Positions 27,127-36,414 of a stretch of DNA of 64,000 nucleotides are shown here, one piece after another. Under the pieces are notes generated by a model. The model searched no databases. It was not told the DNA's origin and saw nothing but the letters and a program-made list of their open reading frames with translations. Numbering within the stretch: position 1 is the stretch's first letter; each line of letters opens with the position of its first letter. Both the position numbers and the translations under genes were made by a program. Source of the stretch: Thioclava nitratireducens. GTDB lineage: Bacteria; Pseudomonadota; Alphaproteobacteria; Rhodobacterales; Rhodobacteraceae. The stretch covers positions 1,896,501 through 1,960,500 of the forward strand of contig NZ_CP019437.1 of assembly GCF_001940525.2 (NCBI RefSeq), given 5' to 3'.

Positions 27127-27455
27127 GGCCTTTCCTCCTTGCTCGGTTTCGGTTCCCGCGCGCGCCGCGGATGCCCTATGACATAGTCCGGTGCGACAGG
27201 GGCCCAAACCGGGCCTCGCGTCCGCGCCAGCGACAGCTTACCCGAAAAGTTTAAGATGCGAGCGCCTGATCACGATCGGGCAGACGGCCCCGAAACCGGC
27301 GAGCCCGGTTATCGAACAGACCAGCAGGCGGCCCGGCCAGTGGCGGCGACCGGCAGATGATCGGTCAGCAGGATTGCCTGCAGCGGGGTCGCGGGCGCGC
27401 CGTCAGCAGCGCCACGCCCACGCCCTGCGTACAGGCCCGGCTGACCGTTCTGTCT
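27127..27455. other. Spacer upstream of the atypical SDR, no gene seen
   Basis: These 329 bp lie between the SDR start and the stop of the upstream Gfo/Idh gene on the same strand. Translations of both strands give only short, low-complexity frames without recognisable motifs. A promoter for the SDR gene should lie in the part next to 27126; no terminator with a T run is visible. Confidence 0.4.
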
Positions 27456-28580
27456 TCAGGCCACGCGGCGCCAAGGCTGCGCAGGGAAGTGCACGGCCTC
27501 GCCGGTCTCGATCGAGCGTTGCACGGCCTGACCGATCGCGACCGCGGCCCAACCATCTTCCAGCGTGACCTCGGGTGCTGCGCGCTCCCCGCGCACGAGA
27601 GCGAGGAAGCCGACATGCTGGTGATAGGTGGAGCCGTTGTGATCGCCAGCGGCGAGCAATTCCTCGGGCACGGGCAACTCGCGCTCCACCGGGCCCTTCG
27701 GATCGCGCGGCGAGATCACCAGCTTCGGTACCGGCGGCAGACCCAGATGCTCGGGCCAGAAGCGGGTCGGGCCGGGCACCAGCGCCTCGATCTTGCCGTT
27801 GGGCCCGACGGCGGTGACCTCCTCCTGATAGCGCGCGCCCTCGGCATACATGCACAGTTCCAGCATCGCCCGCGCGCCGTTCTCGAATTCGACGATCGCG
27901 AAGCCCGCGTCGAGGATGTCGGGTGCTCCGTCCTCGGAGACGTGGTTCACCGGCGCAGGAGCCGAGGCCATGACGCGCACCGGCTCGGACTTCAGCGCGA
28001 GGCGCATCAGGTCGAAGAAGTGGCAGCATTTCTCGACGAAGGTGCCGCCGGTATAGCGATTGAAGCGGTTCCAGTTGCCGACCTTGAACAGGAAGGGGAA
28101 GCGGTGTTCGCGGACCGTGAGCATGGTGATCCCGCCCGTCGCTGCCTCGGCCTCGTCGAGGAAAGCGGCGATCGGCGGCATGTAGCGATATTCCATCGCG
28201 ACCCAAACCGGCGCGGGGTAGTTGTCGCGGAAGGCTTGCAGCCGCTCGGCATGGGTCGGGTCGGTGAAGAGCGGCTTTTCCACGAGCACCGGCAGCGGGC
28301 GTGTCGATGCGATTTCTTCGAGCTGTTCGAGATGGCGGAAGTTCGGGCTGGTGATGACGAGGCAGTCGAGCGCCTCCACCGCCAGAAGCTCCGCCACCGA
28401 CGCCACCATTTGCGCCCTCGGCGCGAGCGTCTGCGCGGCCTGCGCCATCTCTGCGTCGGGCTCGAAGATCGCCGCGACCTCCGCCCCGTCGAGCAGTGCG
28501 ATATTACGCAGGTGTTCCTGTCCCATCATGCCGCAGCCGATCATGCCGTAGCGAACGGGTTCCGTCTTGGTGGCGCTCAT
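27456..28580 (-). CDS. Gfo/Idh/MocA family protein, candidate NAD-dependent sulfoquinovosidase (GH188-like)
   Basis: The 374-residue protein has an N-terminal Rossmann fold (MIGCGMMGQEH, residues 13-23), the VEKPL nucleotide/catalytic lysine motif near residue 100, and a C-terminal alpha/beta dimer domain with the EYRYMP and GGTFVEKCCHFFD region that carries the catalytic His of the family. By itself it could be any sugar dehydrogenase. Context narrows it. It lies next to a GntR regulator and opposite a SmoC-SmoB-SmoA set. Sulfoquinovose clusters of Roseobacter-group bacteria that lack the GH31 sulfoquinovosidase are known to carry an NAD-dependent glycosidase of this superfamily (GH188), which works by transient C3 oxidation. 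No GH31 gene is present in the window. The function is inferred, not proven. Confidence 0.65.
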   Translation of the reverse strand: MSATKTEPVRYGMIGCGMMGQEHLRNIALLDGAEVAAIFEPDAEMAQAAQTLAPRAQMVASVAELLAVEALDCLVITSPNFRHLEQLEEIASTRPLPVLVEKPLFTDPTHAERLQAFRDNYPAPVWVAMEYRYMPPIAAFLDEAEAATGGITMLTVREHRFPFLFKVGNWNRFNRYTGGTFVEKCCHFFDLMRLALKSEPVRVMASAPAPVNHVSEDGAPDILDAGFAIVEFENGARAMLELCMYAEGARYQEEVTAVGPNGKIEALVPGPTRFWPEHLGLPPVPKLVISPRDPKGPVERELPVPEELLAAGDHNGSTYHQHVGFLALVRGERAAPEVTLEDGWAAVAIGQAVQRSIETGEAVHFPAQPWRRVA

Positions 28581-28590
28581 CCGAGCCTCC

Positions 28591-29307
28591 TCATCTCATG
28601 CGTTGAACGTAATGCGCGCGGCTGGTGTCGAACCATGTGCGCGAAAATTCGACCGGGGCAGACCCGTCGGCCCAGCTGAAGCGCTCGATATAGCCAGCGG
28701 TCTCACCGGGGCGGCAGTCGAGCTCCGACGGCCCCCAGTCCGGCATCGGGGCGAAGCTGACCCGGTCTTCGGCGCTCGCGATCCAGAAACCGAGCGCGCG
28801 TTGGTAGTAGGCGTAAAGCGAGTCCTCGAGATCCTCGGCTTTCACCTCGCCCTTCGAGGCGTCGAGCCAGATTTCCTCCGCCGCGACTGGCGTCTCATCG
28901 AGGAAACGCAGGCGGCGCACCCGGCTCGCACGCAAGGCTGTGCCGAAGGCAGGCAGGTCGGCGGGCTTGTCCATCACGTCGACCGAGAGGATGCGGGCAT
29001 TCGGGAAGCCGCCGCCCGAGAGCAGTTCGATCCGCAGCATGGAGTAGAAATGGTCGCGCAGGTTGCGGGTGCGGATGTAATTGCCCGAGCCTTGCACACG
29101 CTCCAGCAGGCCTTTCTCCTCGAGATCCTCCAGCGCGCGCCGCAACGTCCCCACCGCGATCTTCAGCTGCGCGGACATCGTCCGTTCCGGGGGCAGACGC
29201 TCCCCGTCGGTGAGTCGTCCCGCCGCGATATCTCGAATCAGCATCTCGGAAATCTGCTGATAGATCGGCAGTCCGGTGCGCTCTGACCCTTGATTTGCCT
29301 GTGTCAC
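28591..29307 (-). CDS. GntR/UTRA transcriptional regulator of the sulfoquinovose-type cluster
   Basis: The 238-residue regulator has a GntR winged helix (residues 14-78: PIYQQISEMLIRDI, RLPPERTMSAQL, GTLRRALEDLEEKGLLERVQGSGNYI) and a C-terminal UTRA effector domain of the HutC subfamily. It is divergent from the monooxygenase operon and lies 10 bp upstream of the Gfo/Idh gene on the same strand. It therefore probably represses both until a sulfosugar-derived ligand appears. Agrobacterium uses a different regulator family for its smo genes, so this would be a lineage-specific solution. Confidence 0.85.
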   Translation of the reverse strand: MTQANQGSERTGLPIYQQISEMLIRDIAAGRLTDGERLPPERTMSAQLKIAVGTLRRALEDLEEKGLLERVQGSGNYIRTRNLRDHFYSMLRIELLSGGGFPNARILSVDVMDKPADLPAFGTALRASRVRRLRFLDETPVAAEEIWLDASKGEVKAEDLEDSLYAYYQRALGFWIASAEDRVSFAPMPDWGPSELDCRPGETAGYIERFSWADGSAPVEFSRTWFDTSRAHYVQRMR

Positions 29308-29323
29308 TTGGTCGCCCCAAAAA

Positions 29324-29348
29324 TTGATACAGTATTGATCTATATCAA
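29324..29348. promoter_or_regulatory. Candidate GntR operator in the divergent spacer
   Basis: TTGAT occurs at 29324-29328 and 29335-29339 (11-bp period), and ATCAA at 29344-29348. The second TTGAT and ATCAA form an inverted repeat with a 4-base centre, and TTGATA (29324-29329) pairs with TATCAA (29343-29348) at longer spacing. It lies 17 bp upstream of the GntR gene and about 50 bp upstream of the monooxygenase start. Confidence 0.5.
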
Positions 29349-29399
29349 GGCGGCTGCTAAGTGAAGGGAAATCGAACGGGAATCGCGAGGGAGGAACGC

Positions 29400-30554
29400 A
29401 TGACTGTTGTGCCGGTAAGATCGGCCGATCTCGATGCCGCGGAGGTGTCCTGGTTCTCGGCGCTTTGCTCGGATGATTATCGCTATCTGGGCCAGCCCGA
29501 AGGCGATCTGCGCTCCAGCTGGGCGCATTGCTCCGACATCGTGCGCGAAGCCGAGCGGCAGGGGTTCCGCAACATCCTGTGCCCGTCGAGCTATCAGGTG
29601 GGCCAAGACACGCTGAGCTTCGTCGCGGGTGCCAGCCAGATCACGAACCGGATGAATTTCCTCGCCGCCGTGCGCTGCGGGGAGATGCAACCGATCATGC
29701 TGGCGCGGACCATCGCCACGCTCGACCACATGCTCGAGGGGCGTCTGACGGTGAACATCATCTCGTCCGATTTCCCGGGCGAGAAGGAAGAGAGCGAATT
29801 CCGCTACCAGCGCTCGCGCGAGGTTGTGGAGATCCTCAAACAGGCCTGGACCCGCGACGAGATCAATTACGAAGGTCAGATCTACAATTTCAAAGGCCTC
29901 ACCACCGACCCGGCGAAGCCTTATCAGCAGGGCGGCCCGCTCCTTTATTTCGGGGGCTATTCCCCGGCGGCGGTCGAGCTGTGCGCAGAGCATTGCGACG
30001 TCTACCTGATGTGGCCCGAGACCAAGGAAGAGCTGGAAGGCCGGATGAAGGTCGTCAACGAGGCCGCCGAGCGTCATGGCCGTGTGCTCGATTACGGGCT
30101 GCGGGTCCATGTGATCGTGCGCGACACCGAGGCCGAGGCGAAGGAATACGCGCAGGAGCTGGTGTCCAAGCTCGATGACGAGGAAGGTCGCAAGATCCGC
30201 GAGCGGGCGCATGATGCAAGCTCGCTCGGCGTGTCGAAACAGGCGCGCAACCGCGAGATCGCGGATGAGAGCGGCTATGTCGAGCCGAACCTCTGGACCG
30301 GGGTCGGGCGCGCGCGCTCTGGCTGCGGTGCGGCGCTGGTGGGCTCGGCCGATCAGGTGCTCACGAAGCTCGAGGAATATCGCAAGATGGGCATTCGCGC
30401 CTTCATCCTCTCGGGCTATCCGCATATCGACGAGGCCCGCCAGTTCGGCCGTCTCGTGATGCCGCATCTCGACACGGTCTCGCTGCCCGAAGTCTATGGC
30501 CGCGTCCCGATGGGGCCGCCCGCAACACCGCTCGCAGAAGGGGAACGCCGTTAA
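29400..30554 (+). CDS. smoC: Flavin-dependent monooxygenase, candidate sulfoquinovose monooxygenase
   Basis: The 384-residue LLM-class (bacterial luciferase-like, SsuD-related) enzyme has a TIM barrel with MLEGRLTVNIISSDFPGE, the FMN-phosphate region corresponding to SsuD, and YQRSREVVEILKQAWTRDEINYEG, a hallmark of SsuD/SmoC relatives. SsuD-like enzymes cleave C-S bonds of sulfonates with reduced FMN and oxygen. Following it are an aldo-keto reductase that resembles SmoB and a flavin reductase, the exact enzyme set of the sulfo-SMO pathway. It would convert sulfoquinovose to 6-oxo-glucose and sulfite. The start at 29400 has GGGAGGA upstream; the start/stop overlap with the next gene is one base. 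Alkanesulfonate monooxygenase is the alternative. Confidence 0.72.
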   Translation: MTVVPVRSADLDAAEVSWFSALCSDDYRYLGQPEGDLRSSWAHCSDIVREAERQGFRNILCPSSYQVGQDTLSFVAGASQITNRMNFLAAVRCGEMQPIMLARTIATLDHMLEGRLTVNIISSDFPGEKEESEFRYQRSREVVEILKQAWTRDEINYEGQIYNFKGLTTDPAKPYQQGGPLLYFGGYSPAAVELCAEHCDVYLMWPETKEELEGRMKVVNEAAERHGRVLDYGLRVHVIVRDTEAEAKEYAQELVSKLDDEEGRKIRERAHDASSLGVSKQARNREIADESGYVEPNLWTGVGRARSGCGAALVGSADQVLTKLEEYRKMGIRAFILSGYPHIDEARQFGRLVMPHLDTVSLPEVYGRVPMGPPATPLAEGERR

Positions 30555-31444
30555 TGGAAAAGATCGACCTCACCTCCGACGTGGCGCTCAGCCGGATCGT
30601 CTATGGCATGTGGCGCCTCGGCGACGATGCCGATACCTCGCCCGCCCATGTGCGCGCCAAGATCGACGCCTGTCTGGAGCAGGGGATCACCACCTTCGAC
30701 CATGCCGACATCTATGGCGGCTACACGGCGGAGGGCATCTTCGGCGCGGCGATGCGCGAGGACCCGTCGCTGCGCGATCAGATGGAAATCGTCACGAAAT
30801 GCGACATCATCGTCTCGGCGGGGCGTCATTCCCACCGCAAGGTGAAGCACTACGATACCTCGCGCGCGCATATCGAAGCCTCGGTCGAGACCTCGCTGCG
30901 GGAGCTTGCCACCGACCGGATCGATCTGCTGCTGATCCACCGCCCCGATCCGCTGATGGATCATCACGAAACAGGCGCTGTGCTCGATGATCTCGTAGCC
31001 TCGGGCAAGGTGCGTGCGGTGGGCGTGTCGAACTTCCGCCCCAGGGACTGGGAACTGCTGCAATCGGCGATGAAGACGCCGCTCGTGACCAACCAGATCG
31101 AGATCAGCCTCGGCTGCCTCGCGCCCTTCACCAATGGCGACCTGGCCTTCCACCAGCGTCAGTCCCAACCCCCGATGGCATGGTCGCCGCTGGGTGGCGG
31201 CGCGCTGATGACAGGCGAGGGCCCTGTGCAGGCGGTGCTCGACGAGATCGCGCAGGCGCAGGGCGTCGATCGCGCAGCTGTCGCGACCGCTTTCCTGCTT
31301 GCCCATCCGGCGCGGATCATCCCGGTGATGGGCACCAACAATCTCGAGCGCATCGCGAAGCTCTCCGATGCTTTGAAGGTTCAGATCGACAGGGAGACGT
31401 GGTTCCGCCTCTACGAGGCCGGACTCGGTCAGGAGGTCCCATGA
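30554..31444 (+). CDS. smoB: Aldo-keto reductase, candidate 6-oxo-glucose reductase
   Basis: The 296-residue AKR has the catalytic tetrad Asp49, Tyr54, Lys82 and His129 (DHADIYGGYT, VTKCD, LIHRP) and the C-terminal nucleotide-binding GTNNLERI. It belongs to the YdhF-like group. The opening residues and overall length recall the Agrobacterium SmoB that reduces 6-oxo-glucose to glucose; I compared from memory only. It lies directly between the monooxygenase and the flavin reductase, coupled to both (1-base and ATGA overlaps). Together these point to the second step of oxygenolytic sulfoquinovose breakdown. Confidence 0.75.
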   Translation: MEKIDLTSDVALSRIVYGMWRLGDDADTSPAHVRAKIDACLEQGITTFDHADIYGGYTAEGIFGAAMREDPSLRDQMEIVTKCDIIVSAGRHSHRKVKHYDTSRAHIEASVETSLRELATDRIDLLLIHRPDPLMDHHETGAVLDDLVASGKVRAVGVSNFRPRDWELLQSAMKTPLVTNQIEISLGCLAPFTNGDLAFHQRQSQPPMAWSPLGGGALMTGEGPVQAVLDEIAQAQGVDRAAVATAFLLAHPARIIPVMGTNNLERIAKLSDALKVQIDRETWFRLYEAGLGQEVP

Positions 31445-31962
31445 TGAACGCCACCCGCCAGTTTACCCCGCGCACCTTCGTGCCGGGTCCCGAGAACACC
31501 CGCCTGCTGCGCGACGCCTTCGGGCGTTTCGCGACAGGCATCACCATCGTGACCGCCGCCAGCGAGAATGGCCCGGTCGCGATCACGGCGAACAGTTTCT
31601 CTTCGGTCTCGCTCGATCCGCCGCTGGTGATCTGGGCCCCGGACCGCAATTCGCGACGTTTCGTGCATTTCGAGAAGGCCGAGCATTACGCGATCCACGT
31701 GCTCGCCGCCGATCAGGACGATCTCTGCTTTGCGACTACGAAGAACGCCCACGCGCTGCTCGATCACGCCTATCACCTGAACGATCACGGCGTGCCGCTG
31801 ATCGACGGTTGCCTCGCGCGGTTCGAATGTCACCGCGTGGCCTGTCATGAGGGCGGCGACCACCTGCTGGTGCTGGGTCAGGTCGAGCGCGCGGTGATGC
31901 GTGACGATGGCGATGCGCTGGCCTTCTACCGCGGCCAGGTGCGGCGCATCGAGATGAACTGA
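31441..31962 (+). CDS. smoA: Flavin reductase of the monooxygenase, SmoA-like
   Basis: The 173-residue protein has the FMN-binding split barrel of the flavin reductase family (LRDAFGRFATGITIVTA, ITANSFSSVSLDPPLVIW, LVLGQVERA). It would reduce FMN with NAD(P)H and supply it to the upstream monooxygenase. AGGAGG lies 5 bases before the ATG at 31441, which overlaps the reductase stop as ATGA; a second ATG follows immediately. The length matches small partner reductases. Confidence 0.82.
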   Translation: MMNATRQFTPRTFVPGPENTRLLRDAFGRFATGITIVTAASENGPVAITANSFSSVSLDPPLVIWAPDRNSRRFVHFEKAEHYAIHVLAADQDDLCFATTKNAHALLDHAYHLNDHGVPLIDGCLARFECHRVACHEGGDHLLVLGQVERAVMRDDGDALAFYRGQVRRIEMN

Positions 31963-31976
31963 GACGGCACATATAC

Positions 31977-32012
31977 GGCCCGGGCCGCGCAGGAGGAGCG
32001 CGGCGCCGGGCC
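31977..32012 (+). terminator. Hairpin between flavin reductase and TRAP genes
   Basis: Arms 31977-31990 and 31998-32012 pair with one bulged base to give a long GC stem with a 7-base loop. No T run follows, so it probably acts as attenuator or RNA stabiliser rather than a full stop. It separates the catabolic enzyme genes from the transporter genes. Confidence 0.45.
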
Positions 32013-32043
32013 TTCAAGGGATCGCGAGGGAGGAAACGCGCGC

Positions 32044-32631
32044 ATGACCCTGCTGACAATCCTGGCCAGGCCGCTGGTCCGGCTGAACGACATCCTGCTC
32101 GCGATCGGACGCTGGGCGGGCGTCGTCGCCGTGGCGGCGATGGTCATCGCGATCCTGATCCAGATCTGGTTTCGCTACGTGCTCAACAACGCGCTGCCCT
32201 GGCCTGACGAGGCGGCGCGGTTCTGCATGCTCTGGATGGGGGGGCTGATGGCGCCCTCGGCCTTCCGCTCGGGCGGGTTCGTGGCGATCGACATGCTCGC
32301 GGCGATGCTGCCGAAGCTGGTCGCGCGCGGCCTGACGCTGGTGCTTCTGGTGTTCTCGCTGATGGTCTCGGTCGCGGCGCTGAAACTCGGCTGGGACGGG
32401 ATCACCGGCTTTGGCGGCAAATTCGCGACCGCCTCTCTCTGGGTGCCCGACAGCCTGGCCTTCGACGCCTGGATCCGTGTGCCGCGCAGCTGGATGATGG
32501 CCTCGCTCGTGGTGGGCTTCGCGCTTCTGGTGCTGGTCAATATCGAGCTGATCCTGCGCAACCTACTGGCCCTGCGCACCGGAGACGACCCGCTGCCGCC
32601 CGTGCTCGCGATCGCTGGAGGGGCAGAGTGA
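32044..32631 (+). CDS. TRAP transporter small permease subunit (DctQ type)
   Basis: The 195-residue protein has four predicted membrane helices (about 24-44, 58-76, 93-113 and 149-170) and the DctQ landmark FRYVLNNALPWPDEAARF. It links the large permease DctM and the periplasmic binding protein. GAGGGAGGAAA precedes the ATG. Its stop overlaps the next gene by GTGA. The transporter lies directly after the SmoCBA-like genes on the same strand, so it probably imports the sulfosugar or its glycoside. Confidence 0.88.
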   Translation: MTLLTILARPLVRLNDILLAIGRWAGVVAVAAMVIAILIQIWFRYVLNNALPWPDEAARFCMLWMGGLMAPSAFRSGGFVAIDMLAAMLPKLVARGLTLVLLVFSLMVSVAALKLGWDGITGFGGKFATASLWVPDSLAFDAWIRVPRSWMMASLVVGFALLVLVNIELILRNLLALRTGDDPLPPVLAIAGGAE

Positions 32632-33920
32632 TGCTGGTCTGGTTCCTTCCGCTTTTCCTCGTCCTGATCCTGATCGGCTTCCCGATCTTCTTCGCGCTGC
32701 TCGCGGCCCCGGGCGCGATGCTGCTCCTGAACGGGCAGGAGCGCGACTTCGCGCTGCTTTACCGCAACCTTTACAACGGGATGGACAGCTTCCCGCTGCT
32801 CGCCATCCCGTTCTTCATGCTCGCCGGCGAGATGATGAACTCGGGCGGCATCACGCGCCGTCTGGTGGAATTCTCTGAGGCGATGATGGGCCATCTGCGC
32901 GGCGGCCTCGCGCATGTGAACATCCTGTCCTCGATGCTGTTCGCGGGGCTTTCGGGCTCGGCAGTGGCCGATACGTCCGCGCTGGGCTCGATGCTGATTC
33001 CGGCGATGGAGCAGCAGGGCTACACCCGTAAATTCGCCGCTGCGATCACCGCGGCCAGTTCGGTGATCGGGCCGATCATCCCGCCTTCGGGCATCATGAT
33101 CATCTATGCCTATGTGATGGGCCAGTCGGTCGCGGCGCTTTTCCTTGCGGGGATCGTGCCTGGCGTTCTGGTCGGTGTCGGGCTGATGGTGATGGTCAAG
33201 TTCATGGCCAACAAGCACGGGTTTCCGCCCGCCTCGAAGAAACACACATGGCCCGAGCGGGGACAGGCGAGTTTGCGCGCCTTCTTCCCGCTGATGACGC
33301 CGGTCATCATTCTGGGCGGTATCTTGGGCGGCGTCTTCACCCCGACCGAGGCCGCCGCGATCGCCGTGGCCTACGCGCTGATCGTCGGCCTCTTCATCCT
33401 GCGCACGCTGCGCTGGAGCGACCTGCCGCATATCCTGATGCGGGCGGGGCTGACGTCCTCGGTGGTGCTGCTGCTGGTGGGCGCGGCGATGGCGTTCAAG
33501 ACGGTCGTCAGCCTGTCGCACGCCCCCGAAGCGCTGGCGGAGTTCATCCTCGGCCTGTCGCAGAACCCGTTGATCCTGCTGTTCCTGATCAACATCCTGC
33601 TGTTCATCGTCGGGATGTTCCTCGACGCGGGCCCCGCGATCATCGTGCTGGGGCCGATCCTCGCGCCGATTTTCACCGGGCTCGGGGTCGATCCGATTCA
33701 TTTCGCGATCATCATGAGCGTGAACCTGACCGTGGGGCTCGCCACGCCGCCGATGGGGCTGGTGCTGTTCGTGGCCGCCGCGGTGTCGAAGGAACGGGTG
33801 GAGACCATCGCCCGCGCGATCCTGCCGTTCCTCGCGGTCGAAGTGGCCGTGATCTTCCTGATCACCTACTTCCCCGCGATTTCGATGACCATTCCCCGTC
33901 TGACGGGGTTCGCCAACTAA
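32628..33920 (+). CDS. TRAP transporter large permease subunit (DctM type)
   Basis: The 430-residue permease has 11-12 hydrophobic helices and the DctM motifs IPFFMLAGEMMNSGGI, SSVIGPIIPPSGIMIIYAYV and LTVGLATPPMGLVLFVAA. It uses the sodium gradient. The start is GTG at 32628 (overlapping the DctQ stop) or ATG at 32631; both fit the ribosome binding site GGAGGGG. It is the second gene of the TRAP set. Confidence 0.93.
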   Translation: MMLVWFLPLFLVLILIGFPIFFALLAAPGAMLLLNGQERDFALLYRNLYNGMDSFPLLAIPFFMLAGEMMNSGGITRRLVEFSEAMMGHLRGGLAHVNILSSMLFAGLSGSAVADTSALGSMLIPAMEQQGYTRKFAAAITAASSVIGPIIPPSGIMIIYAYVMGQSVAALFLAGIVPGVLVGVGLMVMVKFMANKHGFPPASKKHTWPERGQASLRAFFPLMTPVIILGGILGGVFTPTEAAAIAVAYALIVGLFILRTLRWSDLPHILMRAGLTSSVVLLLVGAAMAFKTVVSLSHAPEALAEFILGLSQNPLILLFLINILLFIVGMFLDAGPAIIVLGPILAPIFTGLGVDPIHFAIIMSVNLTVGLATPPMGLVLFVAAAVSKERVETIARAILPFLAVEVAVIFLITYFPAISMTIPRLTGFAN

Positions 33921-33947
33921 AACGATACTGAAGCATATAGGGAGGAA

Positions 33948-35021
33948 ATGATGCTCAGAACTTTCGTGAAATCGCTTGCGCTGGGGGCCGTGCTGGCCTC
34001 GGGGCTCGGCATGGCCGCGCAGGCTCAGGACGATACGATCACGCTGCGCGCGGTCGCCAACTCGAACACGAATGACGAGGATTACGACGGTCTCGTCGTG
34101 TTCAAGAACTATGTCGAGAACGCCTCGAACGGGAAGATCAAGGTCGACCTCTTCATTGGCACGCAGCTGTGCTCGAACGGGGCAGAGTGTCTGCAGGGCA
34201 TCGCGGATGGCTCGCTCGACATCTACATCTCGACCTCGGGCGGGGCTGCGGGGATCTTCCCCTATGTGCAGGTGCTTGACCTGCCGTATCTGATGCCGAA
34301 CGACCGGGTTGCCGAAGAGGTGCTGACCCATACCGACTTCACCTCGCAGCTGCGCAAGATGGCGCTGGCGGACAGCGACAACATGATCCGCCTGATGACG
34401 ATCGGAAACACCGGCGGCTGGCGCAACTTCGCCAACACCAAGCACACGGTGAAAACGCCCGAGGATCTGAAAGGCATGAAAATCCGCACCATCGTCGCGG
34501 ACCTGCCGCAGGAGCTGGTGAAAGCGATGGGTGCCTCGCCGACCCCGATCCCGTGGCCGGAACTGTTCACCGCGCTGCAGACCGGCGTCGTGGACGGCAC
34601 CAAGAACGGCATCACCGACATCATGAACATGAAATTCCCCGAGGCCGGGCTGAAATACGTCACGCTCGACGGGCATGCCTACATGGCGGCGCTGTGGTGG
34701 ATGAACAACCAGAAGTTCAAGGACATGTCGCCCGACATGCAGCGCGTGATCGTGGACGGGTTCGCGGCGCTCCAGCAGGCGACCTTCGCTTCGCCCAAGC
34801 GCAAGTCGATTGCCGCCTATGAGGAGTTCAAGAAGGACGGCGGCGAGATCTACGTGCCGACGCCCGAGCAGAAGAAGCAGTTCCAAGATGCGGCGCAGCC
34901 GGTCTATGGCTGGTTCAAGGACAACGTCCAGAACGGTGGCGAAGTGTTCGACGACCTGCAATCCGCGGTCGACGAGGCTTCGAAGACGGTCGATGCCGAG
35001 CGCGCGAGCGAACTGAACTGA
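33948..35021 (+). CDS. TRAP transporter substrate-binding protein (DctP family)
   Basis: The 357-residue periplasmic protein has a signal peptide (about 1-26, GMAAQAQD) and the DctP fold. GMKIRT with Arg180 is the conserved arginine that normally pairs with the carboxylate of the ligand. GWRNF with Arg159 and the YMAALWWMN segment are further family landmarks. A sulfonate could take the place of the carboxylate at this arginine, which would fit the linkage to a sulfoquinovose pathway. Two cysteines (75 and 81) lie close together. GGAGGAA lies directly before the ATG pair (33948, 33951); the second ATG has better spacing. Confidence 0.9.
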   Translation: MMLRTFVKSLALGAVLASGLGMAAQAQDDTITLRAVANSNTNDEDYDGLVVFKNYVENASNGKIKVDLFIGTQLCSNGAECLQGIADGSLDIYISTSGGAAGIFPYVQVLDLPYLMPNDRVAEEVLTHTDFTSQLRKMALADSDNMIRLMTIGNTGGWRNFANTKHTVKTPEDLKGMKIRTIVADLPQELVKAMGASPTPIPWPELFTALQTGVVDGTKNGITDIMNMKFPEAGLKYVTLDGHAYMAALWWMNNQKFKDMSPDMQRVIVDGFAALQQATFASPKRKSIAAYEEFKKDGGEIYVPTPEQKKQFQDAAQPVYGWFKDNVQNGGEVFDDLQSAVDEASKTVDAERASELN

Positions 35022-35042
35022 GCCTTCGCGCTTTGAAATGAT

Positions 35043-35075
35043 AGACCCCGCGCTACCCGGCGCGGGGTCTTCTTT
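35043..35075 (+). terminator. Rho-independent terminator after the TRAP genes
   Basis: Arms AGACCCCGCGC (35043-35053) and GCGCGGGGTCT (35060-35070) form an 11-bp stem with a 6-base loop, followed by TCTTTT. It closes the smo-TRAP operon. Confidence 0.9.
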
Positions 35076-35104: not shown

Positions 35105-35341
35105 TCAGGCCGATAGCCACCGCTCGAGCTTGCCGCTATCCGGCAGGCCGCCCGTATGCACCAGCTTCCCGTCGACCGAGACGCCGGGGGTCGACATCAC
35201 GCCTGCCATGGCGATCGCGCGGGGGTCGGTAACCTTCTCGACCGACACCTCGATGCCGAGCTTGGCGGCCGCTTCCTTGACCAACTCCTCGGTCTTTTCG
35301 CAGCGCTTGCAGCCGGGGCCGTAAACCTTGACGTCCTTCAT
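35105..35341 (-). CDS. Small thioredoxin-like protein (CxxC)
   Basis: The 78-residue product has a thioredoxin fold with the redox pair Cys11 and Cys14 in PGCKRC and the cis-proline loop STPGV at about 50-54. It belongs to the short redox-active disulfide group (thioredoxin_3). It starts 11 bp after the stop of a COG0701 permease gene, with AAGGAG upstream of the ATG at 35341. The two are often found as a pair; the permease also has a CSC motif, so the small protein may serve as its thiol partner. The longer open frame through here belongs to the antisense of the permease. Confidence 0.8.
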   Translation of the reverse strand: MKDVKVYGPGCKRCEKTEELVKEAAAKLGIEVSVEKVTDPRAIAMAGVMSTPGVSVDGKLVHTGGLPDSGKLERWLSA

Positions 35342-35352
35342 ATCTTTTCTCC

Positions 35353-36414
35353 TTAGAACAATGCGTTGAACAGGAAGCCGACGGCAAGGATCCCGCTGGC
35401 GACAACCCCGATGAAGACCGCGATCAGGCGCAGTTTCAGGACCTGACGCAGGATGATCATCTCGGGCATCGACAGCGCGATCACCGACATCATGAAGGCC
35501 AGAACCGTACCGAGCGCCGCGCCCTTGCCCAGAAGCGCCTCGACGATCGGGATGACGCCAGCGGCGTTGGTGTACATCGGTACGCCCATCAGCACCGCCG
35601 CGGGCACCGACCACCACGTGCCCGAACCCATGATACGCACCATCAGGTCTTGCGGGACATAGCCGTGGATCAGAGCGCCCATCGCGATACCGATGATGAT
35701 CCAGATCCAGACCCTGGAGAAGATCTCGCGCACCGCCTCGAGGCCAAGGCGATAGCGGTCGGTCATACTTAGTTCGTCGCTCTCGACCGCGCCCGGGGTG
35801 GTCGCGCCGGAATGGATGTCGCGCACCCAGTCCTGCAGCCAGCCCTCGACATGGAGCCTGCCGATCACCCAGCCCGCGACGATCGCGATGGCGAGTCCGA
35901 AGCCGAGATAGACCAGCGCCACGGGCCAGCCGACGAGGCCGATGAGCAGGATCAGCGCCACTTCGTTGACCATCGGGGCTGCGATCAGGAACGAAAAGGT
36001 GACGCCCAGCGGGATGCCTGCGGAGACGAAGCCGATGAAGAGCGGCACCGCCGAGCAGGAGCAGAACGGCGTCAAGACGCCCAAGCCCGCCGCCATCACG
36101 TTGCCGACGCCCTCGCGCTTGCCCGAGAGAAGCGCGCGGGTTTTTTCCGGGCTGAAGAAGCTGCGCACGACCCCCATCGCGAAGACGATCAGGGTGAGCA
36201 GCATCATCACTTTCGGGACGTCGTAGAAGAAGAAGGCCAGCGCCTCGCCAGTATGCGTGTCGCGAGTGACCGGCAGGAACGAGACGATCCATTCGGAGAG
36301 GGCCGGGAGCTGGCGGTAGATCCCCCACCACGCGACGAGGCCTGCCGCGACGACCACGCTCCACGCCCAGCCGGGCATCCCGCCATGCGGGGTTTCATGC
36401 TGTGTCACACTCAT
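35353..36414 (-). CDS. COG0701 family permease (ArsP/YraQ-like)
   Basis: The 353-residue membrane protein has eight or more helices and two repeat-like halves. FCSCSAVPLFIGF near residue 118 and MYTNAAGVIPIVEALL near residue 255 are characteristic of the permease family that includes ArsP, the organoarsenical exporter, and YraQ. The substrate cannot be deduced. No ArsR-type regulator gene lies adjacent. It is followed by the small CxxC thioredoxin-like gene. The ATG is at 36414. Confidence 0.82.
   Translation of the reverse strand: MSVTQHETPHGGMPGWAWSVVVAAGLVAWWGIYRQLPALSEWIVSFLPVTRDTHTGEALAFFFYDVPKVMMLLTLIVFAMGVVRSFFSPEKTRALLSGKREGVGNVMAAGLGVLTPFCSCSAVPLFIGFVSAGIPLGVTFSFLIAAPMVNEVALILLIGLVGWPVALVYLGFGLAIAIVAGWVIGRLHVEGWLQDWVRDIHSGATTPGAVESDELSMTDRYRLGLEAVREIFSRVWIWIIIGIAMGALIHGYVPQDLMVRIMGSGTWWSVPAAVLMGVPMYTNAAGVIPIVEALLGKGAALGTVLAFMMSVIALSMPEMIILRQVLKLRLIAVFIGVVASGILAVGFLFNALF

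Follow-up and report, generated by a model that had tools for sequence, protein, structure and literature searches.

A predicted sulfoquinovose utilization locus with a TRAP transporter in Thioclava nitratireducens

Gene content and intergenic element

Eight genes, two reading leftward and six rightward, lie between positions 27456 and 35021 of the window, the whole 64,000-nucleotide stretch that was analysed, which is part of contig C1 in a 4.24-Mb genome of three contigs. They are predicted to serve growth on sulfoquinovose (SQ), a sulfur-bearing membrane sugar of plants and algae, and on its glycoside sulfoquinovosyl glycerol (SQGro). The features are as follows.

27456..28580, minus strand: sqgA, predicted GH188 NAD-dependent sulfoquinovosidase with a Gfo/Idh/MocA fold (PDB matches, contact residues)
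28591..29307, minus strand: GntR-family regulator with a UTRA ligand domain, presumed local repressor (Pfam GntR and UTRA)
29322..29348, plus strand: intergenic element AATTGATACAGTATTGATCTATATCAA, candidate operator or promoter region (conservation of the TTGAT repeat)
29400..30554, plus strand: smoC, predicted flavin-dependent, luciferase-like sulfoquinovose monooxygenase (PDB matches, tree)
30554..31444, plus strand: smoB, predicted 6-dehydroglucose reductase of the aldo-keto reductase type (PDB matches)
31441..31962, plus strand: smoA, predicted flavin reductase supplying SmoC with reduced flavin (Pfam Flavin_Reduct; mainly position)
32044..32631, plus strand: DctQ, small membrane subunit of a TRAP transporter (Pfam DctQ)
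32628..33920, plus strand: DctM, large membrane subunit of the TRAP transporter (Pfam DctM; NCBIfam TIGR00786 above cut-off)
33948..35021, plus strand: DctP, TRAP substrate-binding protein, predicted sulfoquinovose/glycoside receptor (Pfam DctP; residues aligned with IseP)

The Pfam domains agree with the annotation of all eight genes and identify DctP, DctQ and DctM together as a full TRAP set. Reading frames touch or overlap at 30554, 31441-31444 and 32628-32631, and on these ORF positions and domains the coordinates, domain calls, contacts and overlaps of the original prediction are borne out. Two other Thioclava genomes share a block with the window from position 27462 to 35066, nearly the limits first proposed.

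An ArsP-type permease gene and an ArsE-like thioredoxin gene lie directly downstream on the opposite strand (35105-36414), outside the conserved cluster. A role for this pair in sulfite handling was considered and rejected, since the permease is unmatched across the 80 nearest smoC loci and also borders the decayed clusters of other Thioclava genomes, which assigns it to the flank.

The regulator gene adjoins the cluster in all of the 80 nearest loci (the best 80 of more) and is present in 61 of the 62 loci of a second sample described below. A TTGAT-N5/6-TTGAT pattern is present in 85 of the 87 gntR-smoC intergenic regions and was absent from all 50 shuffling rounds; these counts show conservation rather than function, because the pattern was picked after inspection of frequent words, the shuffles preserve only the single-base composition and the loci are related to one another. 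Stricter TTGAT forms were found in 46 to 71 of the 87 regions, and an inverted form resembling TTGAT-N4-ATCAA in 41. The anchored consensus of the element is AATTGATACACcATTGATcTACatcaa, with the window copy at 29322-29348; a related pattern matched once in the whole genome, and its reversed control had no match. The element and its single genomic match, in sequences that share ancestry, would fit a dedicated local regulator.

Distribution of the gene set

The gene set was followed in samples of increasing breadth. The first consists of the best 80 of a larger number of smoC loci in the genome collection; here SqgA is encoded in 79 loci, GntR and SmoB in all 80, SmoA in 74 and DctP in 58. The other 22 loci comprise three with DctQ, with or without a partial DctM, beside smoA, two cut by contig ends and 17 without TRAP genes. 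Since these 80 loci are the closest relatives, a second sample was taken in which a single genome represents each genus of the family, with SmoC matched at an E-value of 1e-150 or better; it shares genomes with the first. A close SmoC was present in 61 of the 149 sampled genera, the window's own included. TRAP genes stand beside the cluster in 36 of the 60 other family loci (L085, L086 and L105-L162), are lacking in 20 and could not be followed past a cut in 4, and SqgA is encoded at at least 50% identity in 56 of the 60. With two loci from a phylum sample (L163 and L164) added, the totals cover 62 loci: TRAP genes in 37, none in 21, a cut in 4, SqgA in 57, GntR in 61, SmoB in 59 and SmoA in 51. 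A sample of the class had SmoC at 1e-150 in 9 of 385 genomes, one of them the window's own; among the other eight loci, two of which also belong to the family sample, six carry the TRAP genes of the window, one is cut, and L087 is limited to a distant DctM-like gene.

The identical gene order recurs across many related genomes, so chance does not account for the arrangement. The composition is the ordinary and common Roseobacter-type form, with GH188 and GntR near-universal and the TRAP genes in the majority of family loci, and the description of the cluster as unusual in composition has to be abandoned on these counts. Sulfo-SMO clusters of the Roseobacter clade described by Kaur et al. (2023, PMC10755693) likewise combine the SmoC route with GH188 and have no GH31; in the accessible text of that paper no essential difference from the window is apparent, and a TRAP importer is not mentioned.

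Three of the 21 loci without TRAP genes (L130, L133 and L140) have ABC transporter genes just downstream of smoC that are related to those of locus L025, the respective binding proteins being 85, 79 and 46% identical to that of L025. L025 likewise lacks TRAP genes and has its ABC importer just downstream of the smo genes. The L025 binding protein was expected to match a known SQ receptor, but this support fell away because its six PDB matches are all generic sugar- or substrate-binding proteins. An importer was recognised in a minority of the 21 loci; Pfam searches on loci without TRAP genes covered 10 ORFs of six loci.

The predicted transporter and enzymes

The DctPQM transporter of the window is likely to import SQ or SQGro, judging from its genomic context and the residues of its receptor. 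The receptors form a tight group (mean column identity 77% over 32 proteins). The arginines of DctP are general TRAP features, so the match of its residues R159, R180, N220 and W203, all invariant in 32 relatives, to Arg156, Arg177, Asn217 and Trp200 of IseP is suggestive only. In the isethionate receptor IseP, the accessible text of PMC11668362 describes Arg156, Arg177 and Asn217 as the triad that holds the sulfonate (PDB 8t9t/8te9). Gly156 and Ala248 of DctP stand where IseP has two further isethionate contacts, Tyr153 and His244; both DctP residues are again invariant in the 32 relatives, and the DctP site could therefore take something larger. The predicted DctP structure has a mean pLDDT of 78.0, with values below 50 at residues 203-228, part of the likely pocket, and for this reason only the fold was used; in the fold comparison many TRAP receptors tied, IseP ranking level with ectoine and other receptors. 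Cysteines 75 and 81 of DctP (QLC...ECLQG) are also invariant in the 32 aligned receptors and possibly form a disulfide typical of the group.

It is also conceivable, though we think it unlikely, that the enzymes act on SQ while the TRAP genes are mere neighbours importing another sulfonate or a sugar acid. TRAP genes are missing from a third of the family loci (20 of 60) and from one of the four intact Thioclava clusters, carboxylates are the usual ligands of TRAP receptors, a single-sequence search with DctP places sialic-acid receptors ahead of IseP, and the genome encodes 17 receptors of the DctP family. Against this, the tight TRAP group lies directly downstream in 58 of the 80 nearest and 36 of the 60 family loci, the residues aligned with the IseP sulfonate triad are invariant, and the TRAP genes are the sole importer genes inside the cluster. 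The searched literature yielded no account of a TRAP importer for SQ, and supplementary or other papers may contain one; the single match that paired SQ with a TRAP transporter concerned sulfolactate.

Import of SQ or SQGro by DctPQM would deliver the substrate of SqgA. The best PDB matches of SqgA are 8zn9 (1.3e-155), 8qc2 (6.8e-100, over residues 6-367 of 374) and 8qc3 (1.2e-98, over residues 6-364), and the next, 3q2k, reaches only 1.6e-13. According to the accessible text of PMC10755693, 8QC2 is FlSqgA and 8QC3 is ArSqgA, the founding NAD-dependent sulfoquinovosidases of GH188. The sulfonate contacts given there, Arg166, Leu170 and Lys172, correspond to R160, L164 and K166 in the window SqgA, and the sugar contacts Lys107, Tyr136, Glu189, His193 and His321 to K102, Y131, E183, H187 and H314. 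At a ninth position, Glu163 in the numbering of PMC10755693, ArSqgA has V in the numbering used here and the window protein has R, followed directly by E158, a glutamate that is conserved. By homology and these eight conserved contacts, the protein annotated as Gfo/Idh is predicted to be a GH188 NAD-dependent sulfoquinovosidase. Gfo/Idh proteins are mostly dehydrogenases, and the best NCBIfam match, below its cut-off, is an inositol 2-dehydrogenase; a role as SQ or glucose dehydrogenase rather than glycosidase is nevertheless very unlikely, given matches to GH188 structures at about 1e-98, against 1e-13 or weaker for any PDB dehydrogenase, and the conservation of eight of the nine checked residues at the expected number with the ninth shifted by one.

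The sulfoquinovosidase of Agrobacterium tumefaciens presumably belongs to family GH31, and no GH31 gene was found anywhere in the genome by a search that was positive in 6 of 14 control genomes. The original prediction had listed the sulfoquinovosidase among the functions replaced here, which is right as to GH31, but the Gfo/Idh gene, by homology and contacts, itself appears to encode a sulfoquinovosidase, of GH188. As GH188 is reported to be near-universal in the sulfo-SMO clusters of marine Roseobacter bacteria (PMC10755693), the replacement of GH31 by GH188 is already published. Pathways for other sulfosugars exist (PMC12421959), and the substrate of the cluster might be another 6-sulfonated sugar, sulfofucose for example; this is highly improbable, since the sulfofucose pathway of that paper relies on ED-like enzymes of a different kind and on ABC transporters, and the SqgA contacts agree with those of the SQ-bound structures (PMC10755693).

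SmoC matched the PDB sequences 7olf (3.8e-199) and 7oh2 (3.6e-195) ahead of SsuD-type proteins at 2.6e-62 (1nqk) and weaker, and SmoB matched 7bby (2.9e-124) and 7bbz (3.4e-124) ahead of 7twz (7.5e-64). These four entries have generic PDB names; we take 7olf and 7oh2 to be SmoC structures and 7bby and 7bbz to be SmoB structures, and a literature search on the codes returned nothing. The window SmoC is 74.7% identical to 7olf and 72.8% to 7oh2, against 35.9 and 34.4% to two SsuD-type proteins. In a tree of 32 rows (the window, 27 loci hand-picked from 88 with a full SmoC, 7olf, 7oh2 and the two SsuD-type proteins) a split with support of 100/100 sets the SsuD-type pair apart from the 30 SmoC rows, and the NCBIfam SsuD models score the window SmoC at 264 bits, far below the cut-off of 518. 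Assigning the monooxygenase to the SsuD-type alkanesulfonate enzymes, as a sulfur scavenger whose neighbours are unrelated to it, is thus barely tenable: the two enzyme types share the luciferase-like superfamily and SsuD-type PDB proteins match at about 1e-62, but the tree, the identities and the scores speak against SsuD membership and the neighbourhood with GH188, GntR and SmoB is conserved.

SmoA is without a close structural match (best PDB entry 4xhy, 3.1e-39), and its predicted role in supplying flavin to SmoC is drawn mainly from gene position. The rule of PMC13372026, which scores a genome as sulfo-SMO-positive if SmoB and SmoC are both present, places the adjacent smoC and smoB genes on the positive side, under the PDB assignments assumed above. 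The identities first proposed for SmoC, SmoB and SmoA are thus supported together with the sulfo-SMO pathway, and the monooxygenase falls outside SsuD in the tree.

The locus very probably represents a divergent operon pair for growth on SQ and SQGro by the oxygen-dependent sulfo-SMO route, also called sulfo-ASMO. The reactions in this organism, the TRAP substrate and the regulation outlined here are predictions from gene content, orthology, conserved SqgA contacts, the conserved neighbourhood and the intergenic element. DctP would capture SQ or SQGro in the periplasm for import by DctQM, and cytoplasmic SqgA would remove glycerol via transient NAD-dependent oxidation at C3. SmoC, with reduced flavin from SmoA, would then use O2 to break the C-S bond, yielding sulfite and 6-dehydroglucose, which SmoB would reduce to glucose. 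The TTGAT element is probably the binding site of the GntR/UTRA protein, which would release it in the presence of the sugar.

This is a well-supported, ordinary operon of a known kind, in which the enzymology is known and the role of the importer is putative. The sulfo-SMO cluster of Agrobacterium tumefaciens, as described in the accessible text of PMC9594981, encodes a monooxygenase and a 6-dehydroglucose reductase as the window does, but has an SQGro ABC transporter and another sulfoquinovosidase where the window has the TRAP genes and GH188. We lean, with limited confidence, towards a wider proposal in which DctPQM typifies a TRAP subfamily that brings SQGro into the cytoplasm, where GH188 cleaves it with NAD, and serves as the main route of SQ uptake in the family, TRAP and ABC importers being exchanged beside the same enzymes. 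The enzymes are already known, and it is the importer that decides between use of free SQ and of the commoner glycoside. With a binding triad open to testing in the receptor and a conserved candidate operator, it would become possible to read SQ uptake from genome sequences. If the proposal is true, this DctPQM subfamily would be the main route in the family for an organosulfur compound that is among the most abundant on Earth; SQ production is put at approximately 10 billion tons a year (PMC10755693).

Remnant and relocated clusters in other Thioclava genomes

Counting the genome of the window, 4 of 16 Thioclava genomes encode a full-length SmoC at 91-100% identity, and the nearest SmoC in the genome collection, 99% identical, is that of Thioclava sediminum. 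In genome G003 (locus L104) SqgA, GntR, SmoC, SmoB and SmoA are intact, with no TRAP genes within 19.5 kb. Four genomes (G004, G010, G012 and G014; loci L082, L083, L084 and L093) hold a remnant of the cluster between the flanking genes of the window, matching window positions 27330-35045. What is left there is the terminal portion of sqgA, a fragment of gntR and the final stretch of smoC, with almost no smoA, no TRAP genes and an intact smoB; the smoC remainder has an in-frame stop common to all four genomes and one further deletion in three of them.

The smoB gene at the remnant site is 94-96% identical to that of the window. Among the four genomes its dN/dS is 0.07-0.13 and its dS 0.16-0.25, and because the non-coding remnant differs by only 6-10%, below the smoB dS, any reading of timing or selection from these values is weak. 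The orphan smoB may perhaps have been kept for another use, which would hint at a second role of SmoB.

Two of the four genomes, G004 and G010, also carry an intact 7.6-kb cluster at another site that is common to both (loci L002 and L103). The homology of these two loci to the window ends at the edges of the cluster, as if the cluster moves as a block.
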